Of a stretch of DNA of 64,000 nucleotides, positions 13,169-63,890 are shown in pieces (the stretch's first letter is position 1; each line of letters begins with the position of its first letter). A program made the translations under genes and the position numbers. This stretch comes from Bathymodiolus japonicus methanotrophic gill symbiont (GTDB lineage Bacteria > Pseudomonadota > Gammaproteobacteria > Methylococcales > Methylomonadaceae). The stretch lies in NCBI RefSeq assembly GCF_019721995.1, contig NZ_BLYC01000007.1, positions 124,001 through 188,000 of the forward strand, in the 5' to 3' direction. Below the pieces are notes generated by a model that worked only from the letters and a program-made list of their open reading frames with translations, was not told the origin of the DNA and searched no databases.

Positions 13169-13428
13169 CAGGCGCGCCATGCTACCTCACGAAATTCCGG
13201 GACTCCTGTCGCCGTAATTCGTTCACCTACGCAGCGAATAGGAGATGCTCCAGCCGCCCTGCGTCCGCCACAGACTGAGCACAAAGCAGCTCAGTCATGG
13301 CTACCACAAATGGCTCTACGGCTATTCGGGATAAAATTTTAGCCTCCCTCGCGCGCTATCGCGCACTTCGGATTGGCAAATTTCCCTGCGCCTTCTGGAG
13401 ACTATCAGCCCGTCCGGGGCTGACAGCG
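13169..13428 (+). mobile_element. PE1 copy in ftsX (260 bp)
   Basis: Starts CAGGCGCGCC, ends CTGACAGCG; no target duplication. Host base before is T, and the next host bases are AAGG. Contains strong hairpins (GACTGAGC with GCTCAGTC; GCGCG with CGCGC; TCAGCCC with GGGCTGA next to the right end). Antisense to ftsX; excision rejoins codons LAQLA/LLYHS. Confidence 0.92.
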
Positions 13429-13444
13429 AAGGCCAGCTGTGCTA

Positions 13445-13724
13445 CAGGCGCGCCATGCTACCTCACGAAATTCCGGGACTCCTGTCGCCATAATTCGTTC
13501 ACCTACGCAGCGGATGGGAGATGCCCTGAACGCCCTGCGTCCGCAACGACTACGCACAAAAGACGCTTCGTCATTACTACCTCACTGGCTGGACGGCTAT
13601 TCGGAATGCAATTCTTGCTCCTCTCGCGTGCTGCTAGCACACGTCGAATCAGCAAATTGCCCTGTCGCCTATCAGGGACTAAAAATCACCACTTCGCTAA
13701 GCTCCATTTCCATGATTTTCAGCG
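13445..13724 (+). mobile_element. PE3 copy in ftsX (280 bp)
   Basis: Begins like PE1 (CAGGCGCGCC) and ends like PE2 (GATTTTCAGCG). Only 16 bases of ftsX separate it from the PE1 copy. Flanks TGTGCTA and ATGGTGTG; no duplication. Excision gives NTP/LAQL in frame. Confidence 0.92.
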
Positions 13725-13814
13725 ATGGTGTGTTAATCATCAACAGTATTAAGCTAATCACACACCAGGCCACGACCCCTGATATAAAACCATACCAAAA
13801 CCCTGTATAAAGAA

Positions 13815-14109
13815 TCGGGGAGTCGCTATTTTTGCGAAAGCTTGTTTTGGGCATCCCAGCCCAAGCAAGCAGCAAAAACTTAACGCGACCACTTATGCCT
13901 CCGGCGGCCCCGATTCGTCCTCGTCACCTCGTCCCGACCCAACAAGGGGTCGGAACATAGGCTCCAAATGACTTGACGCCGTGTCGGATGGCCTTTTATT
14001 TTGTCTCCACCTTCGCTAACGCTCAGACTCCGACAAAACAACGACCCTACGGCTATCGCGGACTAAAAATCATCACTTCGCTTAGGCTACGTTTCCCTGA
14101 TTTTCAGCG
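13815..14109 (+). mobile_element. PE2 copy in ftsX (295 bp)
   Basis: Starts TCGGGGAGTCGC, ends GATTTTCAGCG. Near the left end are hairpins TCGC with GCGA and GCTTG..GGGC with GCCC..CAAGC. Host flanks are AAAGAA and AAGGTAG. Excision restores ICLPFLYTG. Antisense to ftsX. Confidence 0.92.
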
Positions 14110-14856
14110 AAGGTAGACAGATAAATGCATTAGTTCCACCGACCAGCTTGGTAATGACCACTTCATCATGTCGCGTCTGCAATTCAGAACGGATAGTATT
14201 GCCAATAATAAACAACACCGCAATTGCCAGTAACACAGTCAAAATAAGCACTATACTATTTGCCATCTGCATGATCGCCTGTAATCGCGCCAGCCATTGC
14301 ATATCTAGTTGTGCAAAATCAACCTCCGGCTCATATTGCAAAACCTCAAGCAAATGCTGGAGCTGATAGGCTTCGCTTAATGAGTCTTGTGGATAGACCT
14401 GAATAACCGCAGCAGGTAACGGGTTTTTCTCTAATGCATTCAAAGCAGCACCAAAGCCACTGTATTCGCGGAATTCTGCCAGTGCTTGTTGCCTGGAAAT
14501 AACACTGACTTTAGCTACCCCTTCATTAGCCTGTATTTTAGCAGCCAATATTCTGGCTTGATCGTCGCTAATTTTATCCTGCAAAAACAAGGATATCTGC
14601 TTACCTGTCTGCAGGGAATCAACCAGTTGCTGCGCATTATTAACTAACACATAGAAGCTGCCCGCCAAGGCAATAGCTATCGCCATCACCGTAATTGCCA
14701 TCGCCGAGGTAAAAGGCGCGCGTAACAGGCGAGATAAACTGGAAATCAGCGCTTGTCGCTGCAATTGCAACTGTGTCAGCGCACGACTTTCAGTGCCGCG
14801 CTTATTCGTTTTAGCGACTCTACTGGCCCTTGCTTGCGGCGCTTCTCTAACCTGTC

Positions 14857-15519
14857 TCATGATTGCTGCGGGAGCAGTCGCCCATAATCTAATTGCAAAA
14901 CTCTATGCTGCATTTTTGTCACCAGCTCTATATCATGGGTAGCAATCAATACGGTCACGCCTACTTGCTTGAACTGCTCAAATAAATGCATAATTTCAGC
15001 AGATAATTCCGGATCCAGGTTTCCAGTAGGCTCATCCTCCAGAATCAATGCAGGCCGATTTACGACTGCTCGCGCTATACCGATACGCTGCTGCTCTCCT
15101 CCCGACAGAGCCAGCGGGTATCTATTTTCTTTGCCTAGCAAGCCTACCTTGTCTAATGCAGCGCGCACACGCCTGGCGACTTCATATGATCCTAAGCCAG
15201 AAACAACTAAAGGCAATGCGATATTATCAAATACTGTGCGGTCAAACAGCAATTTATAATCCTGGAAAATAAGCCCTAATTTGCGCCGTAAATATGGAAT
15301 TTGCCGATCGGACAAGCGGTTCAGGTTTTGTCCATCTACCAGTAATTGGCCACGCGAACAGCGCTCAATGGCGGCAATCAATTTTAATAAGGTAATTTTT
15401 CCTGCGCCTGAATGACCGGTCAGAAATGCTATTTCTCCTTTCTGCAGATGAAAACTGACATCCAGCAAGGCATCGCCCGCATCCGCATAGCGCTTAAACA
15501 CATGATCTACAGTGGGCAT
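14857..15519 (-). CDS. ftsE: Cell-division ABC ATPase FtsE, altered Walker A
   Basis: 220 residues, full length, with FtsE landmarks: QDYKLLFDRTVFDNIALPL, signature LSGGEQQRIGIARAVVNRP, EPTGNLD and ATHDIEL. FtsE powers FtsX to activate septum hydrolases. Two oddities: Walker A reads GHSGAGKITLL, where the Mg2+-coordinating Ser/Thr after Lys is Ile (one base change, AGT to ATT), and the Walker B stretch is LILEDEPT rather than the usual L-L-A-D-E. The first is expected to cripple ATP hydrolysis. It starts 3 bases after the ftsY stop and overlaps ftsX by 4. With ftsX broken, the pair looks to be decaying. Confidence 0.93.
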   Translation of the reverse strand: MPTVDHVFKRYADAGDALLDVSFHLQKGEIAFLTGHSGAGKITLLKLIAAIERCSRGQLLVDGQNLNRLSDRQIPYLRRKLGLIFQDYKLLFDRTVFDNIALPLVVSGLGSYEVARRVRAALDKVGLLGKENRYPLALSGGEQQRIGIARAVVNRPALILEDEPTGNLDPELSAEIMHLFEQFKQVGVTVLIATHDIELVTKMQHRVLQLDYGRLLPQQS

Positions 15520-15522
15520 GAT

Positions 15523-17439
15523 CTAATGCGCATCCTCACCAAATAATGCATCGATAAACTGCTCAGCATTAAAGTCCTGTAAGTCATGTATCCCCTCACC
15601 CACACCTAGAAAGCGAATCGGCACACCGATCTGCTTAGCCAGTGCAAAAATCATCCCGCCTTTGGCAGTACCATCTAGCTTGGTCAGTGCAATCCCAGTT
15701 AGCTCAACCGATTTATTAAAGTGCTCGGCTTGCGAAAGCGCATTTTGCCCTGTACCAGCATCCAGCACCAGCAAGACTTCATGCGGTGCTGTTTCGTCAA
15801 CTTTCGCAGTGATGCGCTTGATTTTCTTCAACTCATCCATCAAATTGGATTTAGTATGCAAACGACCTGCCGTGTCGGCAATCAGTACATCAACTCCTTT
15901 TGCCTGTGCTGATTGCACAGCATCAAAAATAACCGAGGCTGAATCAGCACCTGTATGCTGCGCGACTACATGAATATGATTGCGCTCACCCCAGACTTGT
16001 AATTGCTCTACAGCCGCTGCTCTAAAAGTATCACCCGCAGCCAGCATAACGCTATGACCTTGCTGTTGTAATCTTTGCGCCAGCTTGCCAATGGTAGTGG
16101 TTTTCCCCACGCCATTAACACCTACTACTAAAATAACAAAGGGCCCCTGTTTTTCCGGAATCACCAGCGGCTGACTGACAGGTTCCAGTAATTCGCGTAA
16201 TTGCTGTTTAAGCAATGTAGACAAGGCACTCACATCTTGCAATTGATGCTTCTCTACGCTTTCTTCCAGTCGAGCAATAATTTCTGTGGTGACATCCATG
16301 CCGACATCTGCCATTAACAGGCTGGTTTCTATCTCTTCCAGTAAGTCCTGATCAATTTTCCTATTGGCAAAAGTCATCACAGCAAGTGCCGAACCTAAAC
16401 CTGTACGCGTCCTGCCTAATTGCGATTTTAAGCGTAGATACAGCGATTCAGGCTCAACTACTTCAGGTTCACGCTCAACCAAGTCCGCCTGATCGACTAG
16501 CTGTGTCGCACCGTCTTGTTCATCGACTGCTGTATAGCGTCTATAAAATCTTAGCGCAATCAGCGGCAGCATCAAAACTACTGCATTAACACTATGCAAC
16601 ACCACTAACCAGGTAGGCATTAACATTTTGACTATGCCAATACCTGCAGCAATCTGCAGCAATAATAATATGCTGATCGCGATGCCTGCCCTGCGTATTT
16701 GCTTAACAGGACTTTTAGTTGCAGACAGCATAATCCACGTCATTAGCGCAAAAACGACAATGGCTAAAATACGGTGCACCCAGTTTATAGCAACTTTTGC
16801 AGTAAATGATAAAGGTGCAAACAGGTTAAATGCATTCTGGTAATCAGCCTGCGGCCACCACGAATTTAAGCAGCGCGGAAAATCGCCACAAACTAAAGCT
16901 GCATTATTTGCAGCTAACCAGGCTCCCACAGCAACCTGCAGTAGCAAAAGCGCAGCCACGCCGGTTAGCAGCCACTGGCTGTTAGCATTGCTTTTTCTGA
17001 TATATCCAGCTTGGCTTTTTAAGAACACAGCGTAAGCGATAAACAGACTTAATGCACTGAGTAGGTAAACTACTAAATGGTTCACTGCCTGGCTCGGCAG
17101 AAACTCTTGATGCATACTCAGCTGAATTTGCGCAGCCACTAAAGCAACCAACACCATAGTGTAGAGCACGATTTTAAGCCGGGCAGTTTTTAGCAAAAAG
17201 CTCGCCATTAACATTGCTGCGAGAAACAACAGCAAGTCAAAGGTACTGATATAGTGTATTAATCCGACCACATCATGCACGTTCAATGTGGTTTGGCTGA
17301 GCATTTCAGTCATCTGAGTATAACAACCGGAAATCTCAGTACAGGACATTGTATTGATATGGGTCACTCGCTGATATGTGCCTGATGCCGTCAATACCAA
17401 CAGCAGCAACCCCACTAGAAAGGTAAATAATCTGAACAT
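15523..17439 (-). CDS. Heme A synthase CtaA fused in frame to SRP receptor FtsY
   Basis: 638 residues in one open frame. Residues 1-300 or so are CtaA/COX15: eight membrane helices, a Cys pair in VCGDFPRC, and helix histidines in NWVHRILA and VVLHSVNAV; it oxidises heme O to heme A. After RFYRRY and an acidic linker comes a complete FtsY NG domain: N-domain KIDQDLLEEIETSLLMADVG, G1 VGVNGVGKTTTIGKLA, DTAGRLH, TKLDGTAKGG. There is no stop or clear second start between them. FtsY docks ribosomes translating membrane proteins. Upstream genes are oxidase assembly genes and downstream is ftsE, so the fusion welds two operons. It could be real, or the result of a deletion that removed both gene ends. 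Confidence 0.88.
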   Translation of the reverse strand: MFRLFTFLVGLLLLVLTASGTYQRVTHINTMSCTEISGCYTQMTEMLSQTTLNVHDVVGLIHYISTFDLLLFLAAMLMASFLLKTARLKIVLYTMVLVALVAAQIQLSMHQEFLPSQAVNHLVVYLLSALSLFIAYAVFLKSQAGYIRKSNANSQWLLTGVAALLLLQVAVGAWLAANNAALVCGDFPRCLNSWWPQADYQNAFNLFAPLSFTAKVAINWVHRILAIVVFALMTWIMLSATKSPVKQIRRAGIAISILLLLQIAAGIGIVKMLMPTWLVVLHSVNAVVLMLPLIALRFYRRYTAVDEQDGATQLVDQADLVEREPEVVEPESLYLRLKSQLGRTRTGLGSALAVMTFANRKIDQDLLEEIETSLLMADVGMDVTTEIIARLEESVEKHQLQDVSALSTLLKQQLRELLEPVSQPLVIPEKQGPFVILVVGVNGVGKTTTIGKLAQRLQQQGHSVMLAAGDTFRAAAVEQLQVWGERNHIHVVAQHTGADSASVIFDAVQSAQAKGVDVLIADTAGRLHTKSNLMDELKKIKRITAKVDETAPHEVLLVLDAGTGQNALSQAEHFNKSVELTGIALTKLDGTAKGGMIFALAKQIGVPIRFLGVGEGIHDLQDFNAEQFIDALFGEDAH

Positions 17440-17445
17440 ATCTGG

Positions 17446-18042
17446 CTACCCAATTTGAGAAATTCTAAGTAATTTTTTCAAATCACGCTTAACATCGTAG
17501 GGATCAAATCCTGGTGGATATTGCATCATAATATTTCCCAGTGGATCCATTAACAGCAAGCTGCCCTGCGCAATTTCCCCACCTAACTGTTGCCTGATTT
17601 TATTTGCCAGCGCAGCTGACGGCTGTACTTTTATCAAGCGGTCATCTGCATCCCACCAAGGCTGGAACCCGGGTTCTTGTTTTCCTTGCATAATAATAAC
17701 CGCACGTCGGGTGCGTGTTAAGTCCTTATTCAGCATTAGACGTAATTGTTTAGTAGCATGAATTGCATCTACACAGACCTTGTGACACTGCTTGCCAGGA
17801 ATAATATTCAGCATTACCCAATGACCACCTAACTCGCTAATGTTATCTTTGGAAAATTGATCCACCCCGGTGAAATCAGTGCGTTCCATGGTAATTACAG
17901 GAATAACCAAATCACCCTTATTAGTTGAACCCGGGCGAAAATCAGGGTCGGTCGTCAAGTACCAGGCAAACGAAAAAGGAATAATCGTCATTAAGGCCAG
18001 AATGATAATCGTACGATGGTTCTTCTGTATTTGCTTAGTCAT
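17446..18042 (-). CDS. Membrane-anchored SCO-like protein of the oxidase cluster
   Basis: 198 residues. One N-terminal helix (TIIILALMTIIPFSFAWYL) anchors a periplasmic domain. The segment HWVMLNIIPGKQCHKVCVD has a Cys-x3-Cys pair placed as in SCO/thioredoxin-like copper chaperones, and the C-terminal LLLMDPLGNIMMQYPPGFDP resembles the end of a thioredoxin fold. Its position between surf1 and ctaA suggests a role in CuA insertion or oxidase assembly; no experimental function is implied. It overlaps surf1 by 8 bases and ends 6 bases before ctaA-ftsY. Confidence 0.7.
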   Translation of the reverse strand: MTKQIQKNHRTIIILALMTIIPFSFAWYLTTDPDFRPGSTNKGDLVIPVITMERTDFTGVDQFSKDNISELGGHWVMLNIIPGKQCHKVCVDAIHATKQLRLMLNKDLTRTRRAVIIMQGKQEPGFQPWWDADDRLIKVQPSAALANKIRQQLGGEIAQGSLLLMDPLGNIMMQYPPGFDPYDVKRDLKKLLRISQIG

Positions 18043-18760
18043 GTTTCTTTGTTTTACAACTTATCCAAAGGATTAATAAAGTTAAAGTAGCTGCTAGCGC
18101 AAACCACTGAAATGCATAGGCAGTATGTTTCTCTGGAGGCATACGCGTATGAACATGCCATTCACGAACATAACCATATGGCTCTCCAGCTGCCAGCTGT
18201 AGCTGGTAATCTGCAATTGACCGGCCTAGTTTACTGGTGATTTTTTGCTGGTTTATAATTTGTAACTTGCTCGGCCAGCCTTCACTAGGCTGATCAGCAC
18301 CTTTCAGTACCAGTCCCACTTGTGGGAATTCATTCAGCACCCCGGTAATTGCAATCATTTCTGTAGACGGTATAAAGTCTATCGCAGGCAGTTTGCTCCT
18401 GTCCTTATCCATCAACACCCAACCACGATTGACCAAAATAGTCGTTGGATCATGCGCTAGTATAAACGGCGTTAAAACCAGGTAACCCACTTTACCCTGG
18501 TGAATCTGGTTGTCTAATAATATCTGATGCTGGACATCGTAATGCCCCTTTGCAATCACTCGTCTATATCTTATCGGCTTATTGTCTGCTAATAATTGTC
18601 CGATGGGCTGCGGTTGTTTTTGCATCATGGCGGTTTGATTAGCCAAAAACTCGCGCTTTTCTTCGGCTCTGCTCAACTGCCAAAAACCCAGCCGCAATAA
18701 TAAAGCAAGCAGCGCGATAAAACCTATCAGTGGTACGATTTTTATTTTACAGCGACTCAC
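18035..18760 (-). CDS. SURF1 family cytochrome oxidase assembly protein
   Basis: 241 residues from a GTG start. N-terminal helix LIGFIALLALLLRLGFWQLSRAEEK and C-terminal helix HTAYAFQWFALAATLTLLILW bracket a periplasmic domain with the SURF1 motifs ILLDNQIHQGKVGYLVLTPF and LVNRGWV. SURF1 helps heme A reach subunit I. It overlaps the next gene by 8 bases, so translation is coupled. The divergent DUF2909 gene starts 137 bases away, so a promoter pair probably lies at 18761-18897. Confidence 0.9.
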   Translation of the reverse strand: MSRCKIKIVPLIGFIALLALLLRLGFWQLSRAEEKREFLANQTAMMQKQPQPIGQLLADNKPIRYRRVIAKGHYDVQHQILLDNQIHQGKVGYLVLTPFILAHDPTTILVNRGWVLMDKDRSKLPAIDFIPSTEMIAITGVLNEFPQVGLVLKGADQPSEGWPSKLQIINQQKITSKLGRSIADYQLQLAAGEPYGYVREWHVHTRMPPEKHTAYAFQWFALAATLTLLILWISCKTKKHD

Positions 18761-18897
18761 TTTACTCTCGGCTTCATGGCTAAATCATGATTCTAGTCCT
18801 GAATCATCAGATATTTTATGCTTATCTAATTTTTCTAGGATAATGTTGATTATGTATTAAGATATAAGCATTCTTGTTTACTACCTATCTTAACATT

Positions 18898-19302: not shown

Positions 19303-19318
19303 AGGCATAGCGGTTTGC

Positions 19319-20185: not shown

Positions 20186-20195
20186 TATCCCCTAT

Positions 20196-23932: not shown

Positions 23933-25232
23933 TCAGTGTTCCCCTATCAATTGATGCCGTGAAACTAACCTCGCCACAAGAGAGCTCATAAAGCACTGTA
24001 AAGACATTCCTGTTATTATTGCGTTTTGAACTGCCCGAATGGTATACGAGCTGATACGAGATATTCTTGCCTGGAAAAATAATGGATTCACAAAACGATC
24101 TCGTTTTTGAGCCTGTTGCTGCCTAATCTCCAGAGCCTCGCTATATTTTTTATCCGATGGATGAATCAATTCTGGCTGTTGTGTTTTTGAAATCTCTTCA
24201 AACACGCGCATTAAATTATAGCTCATTGCAGTCAGGCGCATTTGATTTTCAAGTGAGCGGGTATTGGAAGACCAAGCTTTAGTTTCCTTGAAATTACTTT
24301 TAGTGTTATTGAATGTCTTTTCAATCGTCCATCGCTTGAAATACAGCATGGCAATGGTTCCAGGGTTAATAGTCATTGGCAAGGTTGTCACAAACCGGTG
24401 AAGTTTTCCGGTTTCTGGATCACGGTAATCCACCACGTTAAATTTGATGCCCTTGTTTTCGTACACACTGTATGCTTCAACCCCTGTATTGATCTCATGG
24501 CGGGAGTCAAAAGGGATAGACTCAACCAGAGTCGCAATTGAATTTTCTTTTAGCATTGAAATCATGTAATTAGCATGTCGTTTCTGCCGATCACACCAGA
24601 CAAAGTCGGTGACGGCTTTATCGTAGACATAGAGATGCTTCTGAGAGCTGTTATTTTCCTTGTTTTGCTTTCCAATATGATCTCGTAACACAGGTATTTC
24701 TTGATGCCTCTGAGTTCCGTTTGTCACCAGACAAAGAAATCTGAGCAACCCACTTCTGAGATTCAACGCGTAAATCCCCCCCGGCCGCATAAACTTTCCC
24801 CTTGCTGTTTTTTTCAGTATGGCAGGCATGATCAATAAAATGTCCATCCGCTGCTTCTATGGTGTATTCGTCAGGTTCTTGGAATTCTTTAAGATAATCA
24901 ATGCCTTGCGATAGCAGTATTTCAGCGTGAAGATGATAGCTCTGCTGTTCAAATGCCTCAAGCATACTTGTTCGTCTATGCGACTTCAGTGATTTAAAAT
25001 ACGTTGAGTGGGGAAGCAGCTGGCCATGAATCTGTTCATTGGTTTGGAGGAAATGGCGACCACTATCGACTACACTGATACAGCGTAATAACCCAAGGCG
25101 AATAAAGTCGATATCCTTCAACTCTGGGCATGAACGAGCCCACAAAGGATGACGCTCTGCTAACAGGGCACGTTCCATACTTTCATTGCAGTGTTGGTGA
25201 ATATGTTCAGAGAGTGGTAGGTCTTTAAGCAT
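23933..25232 (-). mobile_element. IS4-family transposase, split by a frameshift at a G6 run
   Basis: DDE transposase encoded in two overlapping frames: N-terminal part 25232 to about 24780, C-terminal part from there to 23933. They meet at six consecutive G (complement of 24777-24782), where the frame passes from GKVYAAG to GIYALNLRSG. The C-terminal part holds the Y(2)R(3)E(6)K signature of the IS4 family (YFKRWTIEKTFNNTK). The left end CATCAGTGTTCCCC (23931) is shared with the copy at 60519; the other end was not resolved. The frameshift could be programmed or inactivating. It lies between coxB and bioD. Confidence 0.85.
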
Positions 25233-32196: not shown

Positions 32197-32743
32197 AAGC
32201 GTTAATTAGTTCTGAGGAATGCACCTTTAAATCGGATACAAGATGTGTGATCGGCATAAACGAACGATATACCTAAAGAATACTAAGCCTGCACGCACGA
32301 TAAAAATCAACGTGACACAGGCGCTATACTTATAAAAAAACCACTGGTCTGACAGTGCAAACCCAGGCGCGCCATGCTACCTCACGAAATTCCGGGACTC
32401 CTGTCGCCGTAATTCGTTCACCTACGCAGCGAATAGGAGATGCTCCAGCCGCCCTGCGTCCGCCACAGACTGAGCACAAAGCAGCTCAGTCATGGCTACC
32501 ACAAATGGCTCTACGGCTATTCGGGATAAAATTTTAGCCTCCCTCGCGCGCTATCGCGCACTTCGGATTGGCAAATTTCCCTGCGCCTTCTGGAGACTAT
32601 CAGCCCGTCCGGGGCTGACAGCGAGTGACTTTTAAAGCTTGTACTGCACCCACTAAATAAAACTAACAAATGCGCCCATGAAACTATCATGTTTATTAAG
32701 CTTCATAGTTAATGGAATTTAAGGGAGTGCTGATCTACTAGCT
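32197..32743. other. Intergenic region between waaA and rplI
   Basis: Outside the PE1 copy (32364-32623) about 290 bases remain. I find no coding frame with family features and no clear terminator for rplI. This is the only PE insertion not clearly inside a gene. Confidence 0.6.
32364..32623 (+). mobile_element. PE1 copy, intergenic (260 bp)
   Basis: Full consensus from CAGGCGCGCC to CTGACAGCG. Host flanks GCAAACC and AGTGACTT, no duplication. The right flank fits the RNNG rule (AGTG). Confidence 0.92.
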
Positions 32744-35467: not shown

Positions 35468-35727
35468 CAGGCGCGCCATGCTACCTCACGAAATTCCGGG
35501 ACTCCTGTCGCCGTAATTCGTTCACCTACGCAGCGAATAGGAGATGCTCCAGCCGCCCTGCGTCCGCCACAGACTGAGCACAAAGCAGCTCAGTCATGGC
35601 TACCTCAAATGGCTCTACGGCTATTCGGGATAAAATTTTAGCCTCCCTCGCGCGCTATCGCGCACTTCGGATTGGCAAATTTCCCTGCGCCTTCTGGAGA
35701 CTATCAGCCCGTCCGGGGCTGACAGCG
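35468..35727 (+). mobile_element. PE1 copy in IS-1 transposase (260 bp)
   Basis: Flanks TACTGCT and AATGAACT; excision restores GILLMNSVC in frame. Sense orientation relative to the transposase, opposite to the ftsX copy. Confidence 0.92.
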
Positions 35728-36471: not shown

Positions 36472-36766
36472 TCGGGGAGTCGCTATTTTTGCGAAAGCTT
36501 GTTTTGGGCATCCCAGCCCAAGCAAGCAGCAAAAACTTAACGCGACCACTTATGCCTCCGGCGGCCCCGATTCGTCCTCGTCACCTCGTCCCGACCCAAC
36601 AAGGGGTCGGAACATAGGCTCCAAATGACTTGACGCCGTGTCGGATGGCCTTTTATTTTGTCTCCACCTTCGCTAACGCTCAGACTCCGAAAAAACAACG
36701 GCCCTACGGCTATCGCGGACTAAAAATCTTCACTTCGCTAAAGCTCCGTTTCCCTGATTTTCAGCG
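36472..36766 (+). mobile_element. PE2 copy in IS-1 transposase (295 bp)
   Basis: Clean before/after comparison: uninterrupted transposase sequence near 63050 and 63905 shows that exactly TCGGGG..TTTTCAGCG was added between GATTGAA and GGTGAG, with no duplication or loss. Confidence 0.95.
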
Positions 36767-36965: not shown

Positions 36966-37225
36966 CAGGCGCGCCATGCTACCTCACGAAATTCCGGGAC
37001 TCCTGTCGCCGTAATTCGTTCACCTACGCAGCGAATAGGAGATGCTCCAGCCGCCCTGCGTCCGCCACAGACTGAGCACAAAGCAGATCAGTCATGGCTA
37101 CCACAAATGGCTCTACGGCTATTCGGGATAAAATTTTAGCCTCCCTCGCGCGCTATCGCGCACTTCGGATTGGCAAATTTCCCTGCGCCTTCTGGAGACT
37201 ATCAGCCCGTCCGGGGCTGACAGCG
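36966..37225 (+). mobile_element. PE1 copy joining IS-1 to trhP (260 bp)
   Basis: The left flank is transposase (after codons EAKQL, target CAATTA), the right flank is trhP (EEGRPGEL). Neither gene continues across, so two insertions have been joined by recombination within PE1, in the genome or in the assembly. Confidence 0.9.
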
Positions 37226-37465: not shown

Positions 37466-37745
37466 CAGGCGCGCCATGCTACCTCACGAAATTCCGGGAC
37501 TCCTGTCGCCATAATTCGTTCACCTACGCAGCGGATGGGAGATGCCCTGAACGCCCTGCGTCCGCAACGACTACGCACAAAAGCCGCTTCGTCATTACTA
37601 CCTCACTGGCTAGACGGCTATTCGGAATGCAATTCTTGCTCCTCTCGCGTGCTGCTAGCACACGTCGAATCAGCAAATTGCCCTGTCGCCTATCAGGGAC
37701 TAAAAATCAACACTTCGCTAAGCTCCGTTTCCATGATTTTCAGCG
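37466..37745 (+). mobile_element. PE3 copy in trhP (280 bp)
   Basis: Flanks TTGATA and GGCGTACT, no duplication. Excision restores SELI/GVLENLANRG in frame. Same length as the ftsX copy, with a few substitutions. Confidence 0.92.
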
Positions 37746-37984: not shown

Positions 37985-38230
37985 TAACAGGCTACTCAAA
38001 AAGTCATCAGCAACAATTTTGTGGCGAAATCAGGGCCTATGATGCAGATACCGGCCTGGCTGAAATTCTGGTAAAAAATAAATTTTCCGTTGGAGATAAA
38101 CTGGAGTTTATACATCCTGAAGGAAATCATGATATTATCGTTGAACACATGGAAGATATGTATGGTCATGAAATGCAAGAAGCATCAGGTGGCGGATATG
38201 AAGTTAAAATTCCTATCCCATCTTTTCAAA

Positions 38231-38434
38231 CTGAAGTTTCCCAATTATTGAGTAGCTGAAATACACAATGCTGGTGTATCGAGGTTTATTTTAGGTGGTT
38301 TTGCCATGTTTATAGCAAACCCCTACTTAATTCCCCTTAGGCAATAGCATTTGAAACGAATGAAAAGACTATTTTTTTCATATAGTTGTAGCATAGTTCC
38401 AATTTTACCATAAATAATTATTGGGAAACTTCAG
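38231..38434 (-). mobile_element. MITE-A copy 4 (204 bp) in trhP
   Basis: Complete, with an 8-base duplication TTTTCAAA on both sides (38223-38230, 38435-38442). Inserted 10 codons before the trhP stop; excision gives PIPSFQNKLGLLARYL. Orientation opposite to copy 1. Confidence 0.93.
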
Positions 38435-38493
38435 TTTTCAAAATAAACTGGGTTTATTAGCCCGGTATCTTTAATTTAGATTAGGAAAGAATT

Positions 38494-52088: not shown

Positions 52089-54126
52089 CTATTCGCCCAA
52101 AAATTCACCTTGCTGATGCCGCCACATTTGAAAATATCGTCCTTGCTGTGCCAATAACTGCTGGTGAGTTCCTTGCTCTATAATTCGCCCGTGCTCCAGT
52201 ACAATAATTCTATCCATGCGTAAGATAGTCGAGAGGCGGTGCGCAATCACTAGCGCAGTTTTATGTTGCAGTAATTCAAAAATAGCCACCTGCACCTGTT
52301 GCTCGGTTATCGAATCCAGCGCACTGGTTGCTTCATCTAACACCACGATGGGCGCATCTTCCAGAAATGCGCGGGCAATGGCTATGCGCTGCTTTTCGCC
52401 GCCCGATAGTTTCACCCCCCGCTCGCCAACCTGAGTATCAAATTGCTGCGGTAATTGCTGAATAAATTCCAGGCTCTGCGCTTTAGCAGCAACCGCATGC
52501 AACTCCGCGTCCGAAACATCTCGTCCCATAGTGATATTATCACGTACCGAGCGATGGAATAGATCGGGTTGCTGGGGGATCAGAGATATTTGCTGGCGCA
52601 ATTCGGGGAGTCGCTATTTTTGCGAAAGCTTGTTTTGGGCATCCCAGCCCAAGCAAGCAGCAAAAACTTAACGCGACCACTTATGCCTCCGGCGGCCCCG
52701 ATTCGTCCTCGTCACCTCGTCCCGACCCAACAAGGGGTCGGAACATAGGCTCCAAATGACTTGACGCCGTGTCGGATGGCCTTTTATTTTGTCTCCACCT
52801 TCGCTAACGCTCAGACTCCGAAAAAACAACGGCCCTACGGCTATCGCGGACTAAAAATCTTCACTTCGCTAAAGCTCCGTTTCCAGGATTTTCAGCGGAT
52901 GCCAAAGTGAAATCTCGACTATTAATACCATCAAACAAAATTTGCCCACTTTGCGCATCAACAAACCTGAATAATAAGCGGGTTAATGATGATTTGCCAG
53001 AGCCAGACTGACCTATTAGTGCTACTTTCTCTCTCGCTCTGATATGCAGAGAAAAACCCTCAAACAAGGACCGGTGACCATCATAGGCAAAGTTAATATT
53101 TCTGAAACTAATCTCCCCTCGCGAAATTTTCTGAGCTCTCGCGTGAGGGTCGTTTATTTCCAGAGCAGTATTGCTGAATACCTCACTCATCTCCTTTGCA
53201 TCAGCCAGTGCTGTGAAGAAGTTGCGTAAATTGCGCCCAAACTCCCACAACCGCTGAATCAACATTAACAAGATGGACTGAAACAAGACGAACTCACCAA
53301 CATCAAAAGTACTCGTGCGCCATTTATCAATCATTAAAAACATCAGTAATAACTCAATCGCGAAAACCATTAAGCCTTGCACCGCAAAAGAGATAAACAT
53401 TAATATCCAGGCGATCTTCTTGCGTTTATAAACTTCGTTTGAAGCCTGATCAACACGTTGCTGCTCAGTATCTTCCAGCACAAAACTTTTGACGATAAAA
53501 ATATTGCTAATGGCATCCGAATAAGCGCCACCCACGTTGGAATCTGCTTTAGCAACACTTTCATCAAACTTTAGCTTCCACCTGGAAAAACCGATATTCC
53601 AAATCAGATAAACAGCTACCCAGGCAAGAAAACACATGGCAAACTCGGGCTGTTGCTGATAGAAAATAACAAAAGCAATGCTGATCGCCAGAATATTTTG
53701 AAATAACTGGAACAGGCACCAGTCCATAATAATTTCAAAGGAGCGGGAAAATCGGTTAGCTTGTTTAATCAGACTACCGGAAAAGCTGTTTCCAAAGAAA
53801 ATATACTGCTGCTTTTTAAGCACATCAAAGCAGCGCTTTTCCAGCAGGTTCACACCACCGCCATCAACCGGAATAATGCCGATTTCCATAACCCGCCAGG
53901 AGAGCCAGACCCCCGCATAAAACACAGCGATCATGGACAGGTTGTGCAGCAGCATCGAATAGGTTGCAGCAGAATATTCCGAGGCCAGTCCATTGGCGAT
54001 ATTTTTGTAAAATACTGGCACATAAAAATCTAGTATCGTGGCGCCACTAAGGCCAATAATACACAGCAGAAAATACCATTTTTTCTGCCAGACTACCTTG
54101 CTGTATTCTTTAAAAATAATGTGCAT
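52089..54126 (-). pseudogene. ABC exporter (TMD-NBD) interrupted by PE2
   Basis: Pieces 54126-52898 and 52602-52089 total 1743 nt, exactly 580 codons plus stop. N-terminal half: six membrane helices; C-terminal half: Walker A IGQSGSGKSS, Q-loop SLIPQQPDLFH, signature KLSGGEKQRIAIARAFL and VVLDEATSALDS. The PE2 copy (52603-52897) sits between RDFTLAS and LRQQIS, inside the ATPase just before the Q-loop. As written, the product ends within a few codons of the insert; excision restores it exactly. Lipid- or drug-type exporter; substrate unknown. A complete gene apart from the insert. Confidence 0.88.
52603..52897 (+). mobile_element. PE2 copy in ABC exporter (295 bp)
   Basis: Flanks GCGCAAT and GATGCCAA, no duplication. 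One substitution near the right end (CAGGATTTTCAGCG for CTGATTTTCAGCG context). Antisense to the host gene. Confidence 0.93.
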
Positions 54127-56555: not shown

Positions 56556-56797
56556 AAGGTAGAACGGACTTTAGTCCGATATTTTCCCGCCCTATCTTAT
56601 CTTACTGAAGTTTCCCAATTATTGAGTAGCTGAAATACACAATGCTGGTGTATCGAGGTTTATTTTAGGTGGTTTTGCCATGTTTAATGAAAAGACTATT
56701 TTTTTCATATAGTTGTAGCATAGTTTCAATTTTACCATAAATAATTATTGGGAAACTTCAGTTATCTTAGTGAATAGCGGACTAAAGTCCGTTCTAC
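56556..56797. repeat. REP-like palindrome split by MITE-A
   Basis: The left arm GTAGAACGGACTTTAGTCCG and right arm CGGACTAAAGTCCGTTCTAC are perfect inverses and match arms near 40438. MITE-A has landed in the spacer, with an 8-base TTATCTTA duplication. Confidence 0.82.
56605..56761 (-). mobile_element. MITE-A copy 5, internally deleted (157 bp)
   Basis: Both ends and the TTATCTTA duplication (56597-56604, 56762-56769) are intact; 47 bases of the middle are missing compared with the 204-bp form. Shows that the ends alone suffice for mobility, or a later deletion. Confidence 0.92.
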
Positions 56798-57530: not shown

Positions 57531-57538
57531 TAAGAAAA

Positions 57539-58750
57539 TCATTTCAACCGCTTGGCCGCAATCCGCATTCTTAAAGCATTCAGTTTAATAAAGCCCTCAG
57601 CATCTTGCTGATTATATGCGCCATCATCATCCTCAAAAGTGGCAATCGCTTCATCAAACAAACTATCCGTCTCAGAAACACGCCCCACAACATCGACATT
57701 ACCTTTATATAACTTGACCCGCACTTTACCATTCACTGTTAACTGCGACCGATCAATCATGGTCTGTAACATTTCCCGCTCAGGACTCCACCAATAACCA
57801 TTATAAATTAGTGTAGCATAACGCGGCATCAGCTCATCTTTTAAATGCGCCACTTCACGATCCAGAGTCAACGACTCAATTGCACGATGTGCGCGCATCA
57901 TAATGGTACCTCCGGGAGTTTCATAACAACCGCGTGACTTCATGCCCACATAACGGTTTTCTACGATATCCAAACGACCAATACCATTATCACCACCGAC
58001 TTGATTTAATTTAGCCAAAACTTCAGCAGGCGAATGCGGCACGCCATCTATAGCAATAATATCGCCTTTGGCATAAGTCAGCTCTAAATATGTTGGAGCA
58101 TCAGGTGCATTTTCTGCCGACACGCTCCACAGCCACATATCTTCCTCTGGTTCATTCCAGGGGTCTTCCAGAATTCCACCTTCATAAGAAATATGCAATA
58201 AATTAGCATCCATTGAGTAAGGCGACACCTTACCTTTTTTTCTTTCTATCGGAATACCATGCTGCTCGGCATAAGCTAACAGCTTCTGTCTGGAGCTCAG
58301 TTCCCACTCACGCCATGGCGCAATAATTTTAATATCTGGACGCAACGCATAAGCACCTAGTTCAAAGCGCACCTGATCATTACCTTTGCCAGTTGCTCCA
58401 TGAGAAATAGCATCAGCTCCCGTCTCATTCGAAATTTCAATTAAGCGCTTAGAAATCAAAGGTCGCGCAATTGAAGTACCTAGTAAGTACTCACCTTCAT
58501 AAATTGTATTCGCACGAAACATAGGAAAGACAAAGTCACGCACAAACTCCTCGCGCAAATCATCAATATAAATCTCTTTAATACCTAAAGACTTAGCTTT
58601 TTCACGCGCCGGCTCAACCTCTTCACCCTGCCCTAAATCCGCAGTAAACGTAACAACCTCACAATCATACTCATCTTGTAACCACTTCAAAATAACTGAA
58701 GTATCTAAACCGCCCGAATAAGCTAAAACAACCTTTTTGGTATCTGACAT
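57539..58750 (-). CDS. argG: Argininosuccinate synthase
   Basis: 403 residues from [19 protein letters not shown]. The ATP pyrophosphatase loop [33 protein letters not shown] and [11 protein letters not shown] are conserved. It joins citrulline and aspartate in arginine synthesis. Another ATG three codons upstream exists; the family start is used. Full length. Confidence 0.97.
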
Positions 58751-59082
58751 TATTCTCAAACTCTAATTAAAGTAAATTTTTTAATTATACTATAAATAGT
58801 GCCCGGTAAATTTTAAAAATGCAATTCTACGCTTAACAAAGCTAGCTACTTAACCCCATAAAACAAATAGAAATAATCACCACTAATCCATCAAAATATG
58901 ACTATTAACCATTTCCAGTGTGTTCTCGTAAATCTATCTATAATACGCCCCCAAGAAGCTAACACGACTTACAAAAAAAACCACTAAGCCCTATATTTAG
59001 CCAAAGGTCACTTGATTGATCATAAATAAACTAAAAAAATCAAATAGATAAAATGTAACTGAAAAATAATTCTCAAAAAGAG
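58751..59082. other. AT-rich gap between argG and tRNA-Phe
   Basis: About 330 bases with no recognisable gene. It must contain the argG promoter on the minus strand; I could not single out boxes. Confidence 0.5.
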
Positions 59083-59113
59083 TTGACGCAAAAAAGGATA
59101 GCTGAAATAATAC
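59083..59113 (+). promoter_or_regulatory. Promoter of tRNA-Phe
   Basis: TTGACG at 59083-59088; the -10 is either AATAAT (17-base spacing) or TAATAC (19-base spacing). It ends about 14 bases before the tRNA. Confidence 0.6.
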
Positions 59114-59127
59114 CCGCTCTTTAGCAA

Positions 59128-59203
<76 letters not shown>

Positions 59204-59216
59204 TGCTAAAGCCAGA

Positions 59217-59259
59217 TAAATAAAGGTCTTAGAAGATCTCTTCTACGACCTTTATTTTT
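59217..59259. terminator. Bidirectional terminator after tRNA-Phe
   Basis: AAATAAAGGTC..TAGAAGA pairs with TCTTCTA..GACCTTTATTT, with A and T runs on the sides. Serves the tRNA and the convergent integrase remnant. Confidence 0.85.
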
Positions 59260-59388
59260 GCTCAAAATCACAGTGTAGTAAATTTGACTCAGATTCTGCA
59301 TTGTTCGCATATTCCCGTAAGTACTCTCCTGATAAATGAGCATAACGCAATACCATCGATAGATCTGCCCAGCCGAAACTGGCTCAAT
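59252..59388 (-). pseudogene. Tyrosine recombinase (phage-type integrase), C-terminal remnant
   Basis: About 45 codons reading WADLSMVLRYAHLSGEYLREYA match the end of tyrosine integrases, with the conserved LRYAHLS block before the catalytic tyrosine region. It has a stop upstream and no start, and ends 49 bases from the tRNA-Phe gene. Probably the scar of an integrative element that used this tRNA. Confidence 0.75.
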
Positions 59389-59478
59389 TATTTTGGCCAT
59401 TGACAGCATGAATATAAATACTTTTATCATTACGACCTCCCCTTTTTTCAAGAAAACAAACAATTCATCAATAACGAG

Positions 59479-59634
59479 TCAAACCTCTAATACAGCTTTA
59501 TTCCAATTATTGATTTGTGTCGCATGGATGCCATATTTCGCAGTAATCTCTGCTATTGTCTTTTCTCCTTTTAGCGCTTCTAGCACTACTTTTACTTTGG
59601 TTTGCGTACTATGCTTCTTACGATTTATGGTCAT
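59479..59634 (-). pseudogene. IS3-type OrfA fragment
   Basis: 51 residues starting MTINRKKHSTQTKVKVVLEAL and containing KTIAEITAKYGIHATQINNW, a helix-turn-helix of IS3/IS911 OrfA. It stops early and no OrfB follows. Confidence 0.7.
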
Positions 59635-59799
59635 TTCTTAATCCTCAGTTTTGAGGGCAAGATTCTATCTTAAATACTGGTCTAGTTTTTGGGGATCATT
59701 ATAGTGAGCGTAATGAGGTTCTAGCAGCTAAAAATTTACGTAATGAAATAGCAAGAACAATTAAAGAAGCCGGACAATATTATTAACCAATGATGAATT

Positions 59800-59975
59800 G
59801 TAACTACTCAGCGTATTTTTTAACTTTAAAATCAAATGGATATATTTTAATTTAACCTGACTTTAGTCATTTTCACCTTTAAAAAGGGGTGAAAATTGGG
59901 CTAAAATTCAGAGAGATACATTAATTATTATTTTAAATCAATCTGTTATGAGTTTAAATTACGCTGAGTAGTTAC
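59800..59975. mobile_element. MITE-D (176 bp)
   Basis: The inverted ends GTAACTACTCAGCGTA and TACGCTGAGTAGTTAC, with GATGAAT directly repeated on both sides (59792-59798, 59976-59982). No coding content. The source IS is not in the window. Confidence 0.82.
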
Positions 59976-60020
59976 GATGAATGTTAATATCCTAAGAATT
60001 TAAAAAGAAAACTTTGACTA

Positions 60021-60194
60021 TTAAGAATCATGAATTCGTGAATTCTGTATATGTTGTAAGGAGTATAGAAAAGCATTACTCTTCTTTATAAAGATCAACT
60101 TACCATCATTTCGCAAGTGGGAAAGGTGACAATCAGAAACCTTTAAAACTTTCTTTGCTTCCTTGCTACTCACCCATATTTCTTTATTAGTCAT
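60021..60194 (-). CDS. Small helix-turn-helix protein (excisionase-like)
   Basis: 57 residues: WVSSKEAKKVLKVSDCHLSHLRNDGKL is a MerR-like winged-helix (HTH_17/excisionase) pattern. Its neighbourhood, an integrase remnant beside tRNA-Phe, suggests it was the excisionase or a regulator of the same integrative element. No toxin or other partner is seen. It starts 7 bases from the target duplication of a MITE-A copy. Confidence 0.6.
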   Translation of the reverse strand: MTNKEIWVSSKEAKKVLKVSDCHLSHLRNDGKLIFIKKSNAFLYSLQHIQNSRIHDS

Positions 60195-60208
60195 TATGTT
60201 CTACCTAA

Positions 60209-60412
60209 CTGAAGTTTCCCAATTATTGAGTAGCTGAAATACACAATGCTGGTGTATCGAGGTTTATTTTAGGTGGTTTTGCCATGTTTATAGCAAACCC
60301 CTACTTAATTCCCCTTAGGCAATAGCATTTGAAACGAATGAAAAGACTATTTTTTTCATATAGTTGTAGCATAGTTTCAATTTTACCATAAATAATTATT
60401 GGGAAACTTCAG
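60209..60412 (-). mobile_element. MITE-A copy 6 (204 bp)
   Basis: Intact ends, with an 8-base duplication CTACCTAA (60201-60208, 60413-60420). It is identical or nearly so to copy 4, implying recent movement. Confidence 0.94.
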
Positions 60413-60518
60413 CTACCTAATTTATCGGTTTTTTTCTGTGAAAATATTATTCAACTTACCTCTCCCAAAAACTTTTTTCTTATTCCCACTGCAACAAAAT
60501 ATCGCATACAATAAAGAC

Positions 60519-61177
60519 CATCAGTGTTCCCCTATCAATTGAGGCCGTGAAACTAACCTCGCCACAAGAGAGCTCATAAAGCACTGTAAAGACATTCCTG
60601 TTATTATTGCGTTTTGAACTGCTCGAATGGTATACGAGCTGATACGAGATATTCTTGCCTGGAAAAATAATGGATTCACAAAACGATCTCGTTTTTGGGC
60701 CTGTTGCTGCCTTATCTCCAGAGCCTCGCTATATTTTTTATCCGATGGATGAATCAATCGCTGAAAATCAGGGAAACGGAGCTTTAGCGAAGTGAAGATT
60801 TTTAGTCCGCGATAGCCGTAGGGCCGTTGTTTTGTCGGAGTCTGAGCGTTAGCGAAGGTGGAGACAAAATAAAAGGCCATCCGACACGGCGTCAAGTCAT
60901 TTGGAGCCTATGTTCCGACCCCTTGTTGGGTCGGGACGAGGTGACGAGGACGAATCGGGGCCGCCGGAGGCATAAGTGGTCGCGTTAAGTTTTTGCTGCT
61001 TGCTTGGGCTGGGATGCCCAAAACAAGCTTTCGCAAAAATAGCGACTCCCCGATCTGGCTGTTGTGTTTTTGAAATCTCTTCAAACACGCGCATTAAATT
61101 ACAGCTCATTGCAGTCAGGCGCATTCGATTTTCAAGTGAGCGGGTATTGGAAGACCAAGCTTTAGTTTCCTTGAAAT
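60519..61177 (-). pseudogene. Second IS4-type copy, 3' half of transposase, interrupted by PE2
   Basis: Nearly identical to 23931-24290. It begins at the same end CATCAGTGTTCCCC and runs to TTTCCTTGAAAT, where homology stops, so only the C-terminal part (RSLENQMRLTAMS to the stop) remains. The catalytic YREK region is lost. It carries PE2 at 60759-61053. Confidence 0.88.
60759..61053 (-). mobile_element. PE2 copy in the IS4 remnant (295 bp)
   Basis: Comparison with the uninterrupted copy near 24172 proves precise insertion: GAATCAAT/TCTGGCTG receives exactly 295 bases and nothing is duplicated. Sense orientation relative to the transposase. Confidence 0.96.
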
Positions 61178-61198
61178 CTGAAGTTTCTTAGAAATTCA

Positions 61199-61995
61199 TC
61201 AAGGAACCATTCGCAATAAAACGGCTACCACCGAATTTACAGGGGAGCTGCTGTATTTGGGGCAAACCCTTTCAAAATCCGGATCCAAAGCCGCTTCGGC
61301 AATGATGCGGCGGATATCTGAAAAGGCGAAACTGGCTCGCCCCTTCACTTTGTGCCGACGTTCCGGATCGGTTTTTAAACGATCCGCGTAAATCCACGTC
61401 AGCGTTGTTGCCATCATACAGAAGTTCAACAGGCGCGCCATGCTACCTCACGAAATTCCGGGACTCCTGTCGCCGTAATTCGTTCACCTACGCAGCGAAT
61501 AGGAGATGCTCCAGCCGCCCTGCGTCCGCCACAGACTGAGCACAAAGCAGCTCAGTCATGGCTACCACAAATGGCTCTACGGCTATTCGGGATAAATTTT
61601 TAGCCTCCCTCGCGCGCTATCGCGCACTTCGGATTGGCAAATTTCCCTGCGCCTTCTGGAGACTATCAGCCCGTCCGGGGCTGACAGCGATGGTTGGTCA
61701 CTGCCTACGCATTTCGACACTGATTTTTATGGCTCCCTATGTCTTGCTTGAGCTCTTTGAACCCGGATTTGATTTTCCATCGCGCACCATAATACTCAAT
61801 AATCTGTGTGACGGATAAACTTAGATCGGTCGTAAACAAAGCAATCCACTGTGTGCGACGAAACACCCAGACAACCTGAACGGGTCGTTTCAATGTTTTC
61901 AGCATGACAACGCGACTATAAGCCCTGACTTCACGCTGTTTTCCATAGAGATTCACGGTATACGATCGGGCCTTTTGTTGTACTGTTTTTGCCAT
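61199..61995 (-). pseudogene. IS-3 transposase fragment (IS4-like), interrupted by PE1
   Basis: Pieces 61995-61690 and 61429-61199. Joined, they read IIEYYGARWKIKSGFKELKQDI, then CRNA-stop-AVTNH/LNFCMMATTLTWIYADRL. Two further defects: a TAG in place of a likely Gln after CRNA, and K instead of the catalytic Glu in the YREK motif (ARWKIK where ARWKIE is usual). The 5' end is also missing. Dead element. Confidence 0.85.
61430..61689 (+). mobile_element. PE1 copy in IS-3 fragment (260 bp)
   Basis: Flanks GTTCAA and ATGGTTGG, no duplication; excision restores TNH/LNFCMM in frame. Antisense to the host. Confidence 0.92.
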
Positions 61996-62175
61996 GTCTG
62001 TGGCTGACCCCAGACGCTGCCCGTACTTTTTATTCCGCCCCTCTGCTTGGGTTTTCTTTTTTCTGGACGATCGTACAGTACATTATTGCACCTTAACCTA
62101 GAGAGAATATTAAACCGGCTTCCGATAGCTTTGTAAACAGGCTTCCATAGGCCATTGTTGCCAAACCAGCTATAA
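61996..62175. other. Gene-free junction between two IS remnants
   Basis: No coding signal recognised. It is bounded by the IS-3 5' truncation and the right end of IS-1 at 62176. Confidence 0.5.
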
Positions 62176-63630
62176 CTCGATGTTCAAGTTTTTCCATCCC
62201 ATTGCCATCAAACTCTTACCTTCACCCAGCAGAACAATACTTTAATGATGCTGTTGGCCCTAAGCGCCCTAAATCTCTGCCAGTCATATGTTTTCCTGAT
62301 GGCATCAGTTGAAACACATCCTTTATTAATTCACCTAACTCTTTCAGCTTATCACCAGGATCTGGAAACTCTAGCAATGACGTGATGAACTCAAGCAGTA
62401 CATCCATTTGAGACTTGCGCTGTAAGCTTCCTACGGTATACGCAGGTAGTTTGCTTTCAATGCGGGCTATTTGCTCTGGGTGAATCGGGGAGTCGCTATT
62501 TTTGCGAAAGCTTGTTTTGGGCATCCCAGCCCAAGCAAGCAGCAAAAACTTAACGCGACCACTTATGCCTCCGGCGGCCCCGATTCGTCCTCGTCACCTC
62601 GTCCCGACTCAACAAGGGGTCGGAACATAGGCTCCAAATGACTTGACGCCGTGTCGGATGGCCTTTTATTTTGTCTCCACCTTCGCTAACGCTCAGACTC
62701 CGACAAAATAACGGCCCTACGGCTATCGCGGACTAAAAATCATCACTTCGCTTAGGCTCCGTTTCCCTGATTTTCAGCGGGAGAAGGCAATGGTCAAACA
62801 AAAGACTCAGAATCAGGCCACGGCTTGATCCCTCTTCATCTAATTGTTTGGCCTCACGCCCCCATCCTTCATAAAGCTTCCAGTCCTCAAAGAAAACCTC
62901 AATCAGCCATCTCAACGTATAGGCTTGAATAATATCTTGTGTGCGCCAAGTCAGGTCTGTCGCCACTAAATAGCGATAGTCGTTTTCACCGTCATATTTT
63001 AAGGCAATGACAAAGCGTTTTTTACTGTGAGAACTCACCTTTAATCGTGCACTGCTGACAGTCACTTTAATCTCTTTGCCGCCACGTACACGTATTATCT
63101 GATCAATGCCTTTGTTAATCGAATTAAAGTAGCTCTCGACTGACCTTATTCTACCTCTATATTCAATATTTTGGTTTTTACGTAATTGGCTAATCACCTG
63201 CGAGCCTCCAGATTCTTTAGCGGCTTCGTCCATAAAGGCTTTTTCACCATACAGCGCATCAGCCAGTACGCCTTTAATTTTAATCAGGCTATGCGCAACT
63301 TTAAACTCTTTTAATAAGCCTAATGCAATCTCTGTTTTGGTCGGGTAGGCACTGTCACGTTCATGCTTAATAGGCCGATCTTTTTTTGCTATACCGCTAT
63401 TTTTCAACCGTTTATCTTCTTTATCCCACTGCTTTAAGGCTGGATCCGGCATATAAAAGAAAAAACCGACAGGCACTGTAATGGATGAGGTAACTAGCAG
63501 CAATAATACTATCGTTTGTCCATTAACATACCCGCCGGAGCCTTTGTGTTTCTGCTTGTAAACCTTATAAATACGTTTTGTAGACTTAGATCGTGCTCGG
63601 TCTGATTCATCAAAGGCCAACACACCTTCA
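62176..63630 (-). mobile_element. IS-1 second copy, interrupted by PE2, 5' end displaced
   Basis: The right end of IS-1 is at 62176 (CTCGATGTTCAAG in this orientation). Transposase pieces are 63630-62780 and 62484-62222; joined, they read GVLAFDESD ... LFDHCLL/LHPEQIARIE ... SGKHMTGRDLGRLGPTASLKY and stop. This copy supplies the C-terminus missing from the one at 35250. The first 185 or so codons are replaced by a PE1 at 63631. Confidence 0.88.
62485..62779 (+). mobile_element. PE2 copy in IS-1 second copy (295 bp)
   Basis: Flanks GGGTGAA and GGAGAAGG. Excision gives DHCLLLHPEQ in frame. Antisense to the transposase, whereas the PE2 in the first IS-1 copy is sense. Confidence 0.93.
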
Positions 63631-63890
63631 CAGGCGCGCCATGCTACCTCACGAAATTCCGGGACTCCTGTCGCCGTAATTCGTTCACCTACGCAGCGAA
63701 TAGGAGATGCTCCAGCCGCCCTGCGTCCGCCACAGACTGAGCACAAAGCAGCTCAGTCATGGCTACCACAAATGGCTCTACGGCTATTCGGGATAAAATT
63801 TTAGCCTCCCTCGCGCGCTATCGCGCACTTCGGATTGGCAAATTTCCCTGCGCCTTCTGGAGACTATCAGTCCTTCCGGGGCTGACAGCG
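63631..63890 (+). mobile_element. PE1 copy between inverted IS-1 fragments (260 bp)
   Basis: The left flank is IS-1 read backwards (ends at codons for EGVLAF); the right flank is IS-1 read forwards from an internal position (TGTCAGCAGTGC). Both cannot derive from one simple insertion, so PE1 was the crossover or misjoin point. Confidence 0.9.

Follow-up and report, generated by a model that had tools for sequence, protein, structure and literature searches.

PE elements: high-copy, transposase-free DNA insertions with a one-sided target rule and a predicted conserved fold in methanotrophic Methylococcales

The palindrome-associated transposable elements (PATEs) of Haloquadratum walsbyi (PMC3119063) lack terminal inverted repeats, carry palindromes near their ends, make no target duplication, are too short to encode a transposase and occur in many copies, in hosts in which the majority of transposase genes are broken. 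All these traits are shared by the PE family, which we studied in a stretch of 64,000 bp (hereafter the window; contig 7, NZ_BLYC01000007.1, positions 124001-188000) from the genome of the methanotrophic gill symbiont of Bathymodiolus japonicus. PEs are non-coding, tightly folded DNA elements of 260-316 bp that have multiplied in methanotrophs. By description they are PATE-like; they are set apart by a covarying, predicted fold that is conserved over the whole element throughout the order and by a target rule of a single base. A first-pass annotation, made from the sequence alone, had reported no described family with such ends, and our Rfam and literature searches agree with this, PATE having already been published as a descriptive kind.

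The palindromes of PATEs are related to IS605-type transposons, which are targeted by an oligonucleotide of 4-6 bases. Members of the IS200/IS605 family (IS608, ISDra2) have, like PE, hairpins near their ends and a target beside one end only, and they use the lagging-strand template (PMC6006769). REP sequences, which are linked to RAYT genes (PMC3733652, PMC8266576), are also high-copy and palindrome-bearing, and those of the CGTC type, like PE, are described as having no known dedicated transposase. However, REPs measure 20-65 nt and carry, at the foot of their hairpin, a GTAG or CGTC tag, which PE lacks. Unlike REPs, PE copies were not found bordering RAYT genes in the 100 Y1 loci scanned (see below). 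The HEARO/IscB omega-RNA elements are non-coding, folded, a few hundred bases long and follow a target rule on one side; for PE, neither a match to an RNA family model of Rfam nor a protein partner was found in our searches.

Copies, insertion and target site

The genome is a long-read composite draft of 4.97 Mb (4,971,076 bases in 109 contigs, BLYC01000001 to BLYC01000109), in which insertion sequences make up more than 20% of the sequence and the majority of transposase genes are broken (PMC8788690). The main text of that report makes no mention of mite, ISfinder or ISEScan. Genome-wide, with up to three mismatches allowed, the left end of PE2 matched at 526 places and the left end common to PE1 and PE3 at 812, while the reversed patterns used as controls gave no match; elements were also present in many other assemblies. 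For a single bacterial genome to contain more than 1000 copies of an element without a transposase is, in our judgement, unusual, and some of the repeat load of this deep-sea mussel symbiont is due to the family.

Copies were studied in a sample of 864 kb (the window and 40 further stretches, 17% of the genome), where 299 non-overlapping PE places together occupy 8.8% of the sequence. Full-length copies, with ends placed within 5-6 bases and identity above 88%, were present at 234 of these places (62 PE1, 66 PE3 and 106 PE2), and the remaining 65 partial or divergent places were excluded from the flank counts. The first-pass annotation had given each type an invariant length, which is nearly but not strictly the case: PE1 has 260 bp in 61/62 copies and PE3 has 280 bp in 57/67, and PE2 has 295 bp in 69/105 copies and 293-294 bp in 33. 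The first two bases of PE2 vary (TC in 70/106 copies); the other PE ends are nearly constant. Since 38/62 PE1 copies equal the consensus exactly, the multiplication of PE1 is, to judge by this identity, recent; mean identity to the own consensus is 98.8% for PE2 and 99.0% for PE3.

In the window, 13 copies (six PE1, two PE3 and five PE2; 12 on the plus and one on the minus strand) were found, as annotated at first pass apart from small coordinate corrections (Table 1). Insertion is precise and occurs without duplication. Both comparisons with uninterrupted paralogues in the window (for the copies at 36472 and 60759), which the annotation had already put forward, hold as read from the sequence, with no host bases gained or lost. 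For the PE2 copy at 52603-52897, the orthologous gene was uninterrupted in three of the seven genomes searched (our labels G016, G009 and G006); here the halves of the match abut (e.g., at contig position C84:11577/11578 in G006) and exactly the 295 query bases of the element are absent. Genome G008 was not counted as an empty site, since at the junction 20 bases fail to align on either side of the comparison; G004, G015 and G011 gave no match of this kind to the host gene. Where one PE lies within another, gain or loss was zero in all four cases in which both host parts were found and abutted. Terminal inverted repeats were not seen in the ends of the copies, nor target duplications at the empty sites or nested insertions, in agreement with the initial description; apart from the first two bases of PE2, the ends hardly varied.

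The target rule, which the first-pass annotation did not contain, is one-sided. Most subfamilies end in GACTA-hairpin-CAGCG, and among the 228 distinct flank pairs of this genome the fourth base after this hairpin end (+4) is G in 223. Furthermore, C occurs at +1 in only five pairs and G at +5 in only ten. Relative information reaches 2.0 bits at +4 and stays below 0.09 at each upstream position tested. Four of the five exceptions carry G at +3 and could be shifts by one base, provided that the final G of CAGCG is a host base. On the opposite strand the rule reads C at -4 and does not constrain the positions of the variable first two bases of PE2.

The same rule was seen outside this genome. 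Of 80 hairpin ends collected from named genomes and viral contigs, seven had no readable canonical end; among the 73 scorable ones, nine of them viral, G stands at +4 in 71. Loci inspected by eye, which overlap in part with this set, gave 6/6 in G027, 6/6 scorable of seven in G016 and 5/5 scorable of six in G020. In G035 and G054, where we placed the ends ourselves and the last bases are CCTTC instead of CAGCG, it was found in 3/3 loci each; thus, the rule is probably not tied to the CAGCG end.

The orientation of PEs is linked to GC skew. With the elements left unmasked, stretches of positive skew contain 27 copies in plus and 142 in minus orientation, and stretches of negative skew 52 and 13, respectively. 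With elements masked and skew calculated locally over 20 kb, the CGCTG strand of the element lies on the G-rich strand in 163/234 copies, and in 145/183 where the absolute skew exceeds 0.03. Named genomes show the same sense of orientation at 44/70 sites. The G-rich strand is normally of leading sense, that is, of the same sequence as the lagging-strand template. The bias is therefore as expected if one PE strand enters the lagging-strand template, and with skew as a proxy it suggests a link to the replication strand; it is by this proxy only that PE matches the preference of IS200/IS605 elements (PMC6006769).

It should be mentioned that PE copies are depleted from genes, most of them lying outside intact frames or in decayed genes. 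Among the 160 of 234 copies with clean flanks of 150 nt, the frame was open and in phase on both sides in 42 (26 sense and 16 antisense), against nine and nine in the out-of-phase controls for the same copies, whereas among 5000 random sites sharing the target motif 3008 (60%) fell in open frames. This test requires 150 open bases per side and so does not register copies that lie close to the end of a gene or in a decayed one. The earlier statement that ten of eleven undisturbed copies of the window sit inside genes was not reproduced (nine of the 13 copies have clean flanks, and five of these are in phase) and, given the depletion, is not typical of the family.

Predicted fold and distribution in Methylococcales

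Nine elements from nine genomes could be aligned over their whole length, and the consensus structure derived from them comprises a long hairpin close to one end, a middle part with multiple branches and small stems that are conserved. In 33 of its 60 pairs both sides have changed, a value reached in none of 500 shuffles, while slid controls gave 5-9. In total, 93.8% of the alignment cells pair in the consensus; as the fold was derived from the same alignment, such percentages lean towards it, and more weight attaches to the double changes. Folding of the opposite strand gave double changes in 21/51 pairs, and wobble counts on the alignment did not discriminate which strand folds. Folds of single sequences had moderate z-scores (-1.9 to -4.8) and place hairpins at or near the ends, where the first-pass annotation had also put them. 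The predicted fold is conserved across the whole length of PE and throughout the order. In the window no Rfam family reached its gathering score, and five matches at E values up to 5 were weak (below gathering) or lay outside the elements. The family combines a sharp, testable target rule with a whole-length predicted fold and a presumed replication-strand signature.

Among 61 genomes, matches to PE2 at E <=0.001 were found in 31, counting this one, and matches to PE1 in 16; many of these matches are partial. One exact hairpin-end pattern was found in 69 stretches of the named genome collection, whose titles give Methylotuvimicrobium, Methylomonas, Methylomicrobium, Methylicorpusculum, Methylococcaceae or a metagenome-assembled genome of Gammaproteobacteria. 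The named hosts found belong to Methylococcales; among them, Methylotuvimicrobium buryatense and Methylomonas are methanotrophs available in culture. Matches to PEs were also obtained in plasmid records of Methylomonas, Methylobacter and Methyloprofundus and, weakly, of Methylocalor. PE2 gave no match in phage records; PE patterns are present in a few viral contigs. Loci that were read contained no autonomous version.

A PE1 copy in G006 (C385:3685-3943) is 100% identical over 259 bases to window positions 13170-13428, although the ABC genes of G006 and the window are only 79-80% identical, which suggests a recent transfer of PE1 between species. The family thus points to exchange of elements between species. 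A separate observation concerns G059, a genome of another family, in which short contigs (C79-C89) carry PE2 at about 96% identity; this could reflect transfer or contamination of the assembly.

Possible mechanism and search for the enzyme

We favour, with a probability of about 0.58, the view that PEs are non-autonomous mobile DNA moving as a single strand. By analogy with known single-strand insertion, the moving strand would read 5'-CNNH/CGCTG-hairpin (the slash marks the cut) and the CGCTG strand would insert, single-stranded, into the lagging-strand template. We infer both this intermediate and the class of the enzyme, which may have been lost or disabled in this genome. The likeness to IS200/IS605 and PATE elements proposed at first pass holds for mobility, lack of autonomy, scarless insertion, hairpins close to the ends, orientation by GC skew and the one-sided target, and fails for the guide and the target tetranucleotide.

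The annotation had also suggested looking for a Y1 (TnpA/RAYT-like) transposase gene whose flanks share the PE ends. In this genome 22 Y1 matches were found and 20 loci fetched; apart from a single intact RAYT (222 aa), they comprise decayed copies, namely at least two kinds of IS200 type and a third kind (the L011/L012 group). The RAYT (L016:1201-1869, minus strand) is bordered by AAAGGGGACGCTACCC-type inverted palindromes and has a 76% identical relative in G049. Among 100 Y1 loci of this genome and its relatives we counted 26 GACTA..CAGCG matches, of which 18 are ends of PE copies; in the other eight no hairpin was visible by eye, and their number does not exceed chance expectation (about 18 in that length). 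No IS605-type parent of the kind known for PATEs was thus recognised in the Y1 loci examined. Decayed IS200-type copies were rejected as parents on the ends read for two types (GTAGTTAATT on one side; a ACCCACCCGCT hairpin followed by GTTTAGTT), which do not resemble those of PE. The L016-type RAYT and a RAYT of 175-190 aa were rejected as order-wide drivers, since their presence does not track that of PE and their loci have their own palindromes. The TnpB C-terminal domain gave no match in this genome (controls matched in 6/14), and a search for RRXRR gave none here, but none in the controls either.

Stretches bordered by PE pieces, considered as candidate autonomous elements, proved to be a DDE insertion sequence lying within a degenerate PE3 (G000:C2:201545-203771), an IS3-like insertion in a PE (L099) and a run of N (L222). 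Solo palindromes of the form CGCTG-hairpin-CAGCG, two found by pattern and one by eye (L085:752-780, G000:C2:205075-205103 and G000:C1 near 303494), were rejected as minimal mobile units: both their flanks fit G at +4, as expected of deletion remnants, and they are probably what is left after deletion between inverted PEs. They resemble the "double-foot" palindromes of REPs, which are explained by deletion between inverted copies (PMC6006769).

Several facts weigh against single-strand movement by an enzyme of the IS200/IS605 kind. IS200/IS605 elements have a transposase, a target tetranucleotide and a guide tetranucleotide 5' of the hairpin foot, whereas PE has no transposase and a single fixed target base, with +1 and +5 merely restricted; in the predicted folds of PE2, PE1 and the G027 element the distance from cut to hairpin foot is 0-2 nt, too short for a canonical guide. 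On the strand presumed to be active, the last base of PE1 and PE3 is G, even though targets in this genome avoid this base. The rule is weaker elsewhere in one respect, since C at +1, rare here, was found in 8/73 sites, and in Methylotuvimicrobium (M. buryatense) the orientation signal is weak (13/24; local skew, 8-kb stretches). By frame data on the 22 matches, the only intact Y1 gene recognised in the genome is the RAYT, its flanking palindromes are GGGGACGCTACCC-like and different from PE ends, and no match to its type was found in PE-bearing G020, G035 and G054. No Y1 gene with PE ends was found in the loci examined, a set that leaves out the L011/L012 ends and some Y1 genes of relatives.

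In a possible, if doubtful, alternative, PEs are an element class of their own. Here the folded nucleic acid of 260-310 nt, conserved over its whole length across an order of bacteria, would itself be the active or guiding part of insertion, requiring of its target no more than one G at the fourth base from the cut; the enzyme would lie outside the known transposase families, or be one of host replication or repair, rather than a lost transposase of IS605 type. The resident RAYT, or another TnpA-REP, might instead act on PE hairpins as on a long REP-type element, since REPs are likewise palindromes of high copy number with a link to Y1 enzymes (PMC6006769) and this is the one intact Y1 gene recognised; however, PEs lack the GTAG foot, the RAYT has the palindrome of its own and the distribution described above, and the other RAYT type gave only two weak matches here, so that we regard this explanation as improbable. 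It is also unlikely that PEs spread by rolling-circle transposition (Y2, IS91- or Helitron-like), with replication starting at the hairpin end and copies pasted beside a short target there. Asymmetric ends, absence of inverted repeats and duplications, a hairpin beside one end, a target rule on the hairpin side only and the frequent TC start of PE2 would all suit it. On the other hand, IS91 targets are GAAC/CAAG beside the ori end and do not fit DNNG, a motif scan of open frames in the 864 kb detected no Y2-like or HPHxH motif, and most PE places are full length with fixed ends, one-ended products among the other 65 not having been checked.

Movement through RNA, with reverse transcription of a plus-strand transcript at DNA ends that are nicked or nascent, in the manner of a bacterial SINE, seems rather improbable to us. 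The fold conserved over the whole element, the constant hairpin end against the slightly variable other end and the skew-linked orientation speak for it; full-length copies, exact ends and an unchanged target site do not, and of 35 matches to a loose reverse transcriptase motif in the 864 kb, none among the 14 listed looked like a reverse transcriptase by eye, most being one DDE transposase peptide. The whole-length covarying fold would also suit an omega-RNA-like element assisted by an IscB/TnpB-like guide RNA without protein, with the guide in the flank, and the place of the target rule is that of a TAM; since no Rfam match was obtained over the elements searched and no TnpB C-terminal domain was detected here, we consider this very unlikely. 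Finally, precise junctions and structure might recall ribozyme-like introns, tolerated in genes by splicing out. The depletion from open frames speaks against such introns or silent insertions as a general property, PEs occur in genes in both orientations and there is no fixed upstream base, so this last reading is scarcely credible. Identification of the driver would add a new branch to single-strand transposition or else reveal that a structured nucleic acid can spread in a new manner.

Coordinates and other repeats of the window

The positions of all PE copies of the window, of the two paralogous empty sites and of a second repeat family are given in Table 1.

Table 1. Positions of PE copies, empty sites and a second repeat family in the window; a slash marks the insertion point
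Feature	Position	Strand	Remarks
PE1 copy	13169..13428	+	260 bp, CAGGCGCGCC...CTGACAGCG, 3' flank AAGG
PE3 copy	13445..13724	+	280 bp, CAGGCGCGCC...TTTTCAGCG, 3' flank ATGG
PE2 copy	13815..14109	+	295 bp, TCGGGGAGTC...TTTTCAGCG, 3' flank AAGG
PE1 copy	32364..32623	+	3' flank AGTG
PE1 copy	35468..35727	+	3' flank AATG; in phase, 5' part of DDE transposase gene
PE2 copy	36472..36766	+	3' flank GGTG; same DDE transposase gene as PE1 at 35468
PE1 copy	36966..37225	+	3' flank GAAG
PE3 copy	37466..37745	+	3' flank GGCG
PE2 copy	52603..52897	+	3' flank GATG; in ABC transporter gene; three orthologous empty sites
PE2 copy	60759..61053	-	3' flank ATTG
PE1 copy	61430..61689	+	3' flank ATGG
PE2 copy	62485..62779	+	3' flank GGAG
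PE1 copy	63631..63890	+	3' flank AATG
Empty site for 60759 copy	24170..24171		Uninterrupted paralogue, 24170/24171 (corrected position)
Empty site for 36472 copy	63913..63914		Uninterrupted paralogue, ...GATTGAA/GGTGAG...
Second repeat family	38229-38455		
Second repeat family	60207-60433		
Second repeat family	56584-56767		
Second repeat family	811-959	-	
Second repeat family	6071-6154	-	

The second family is MITE-like and about 200-230 bp long, and its ends, CTGAAGTTTCCCAAT...ATTGGGAAACTTCAG, are inverted. A third repeat measures about 320 bp, has the ends ...CCATCTTCGTCACT / AGTGACGAAGATGGG and is located in the window at about 12740-13080 and at L087:4231-4548; the latter copy lies inside a PE3 with a query overlap of five bases, as with a MITE that makes duplications. 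In addition, window positions 5682-6638 contain near-identical direct repeats, spaced by about 530 bp, that are not PEs.

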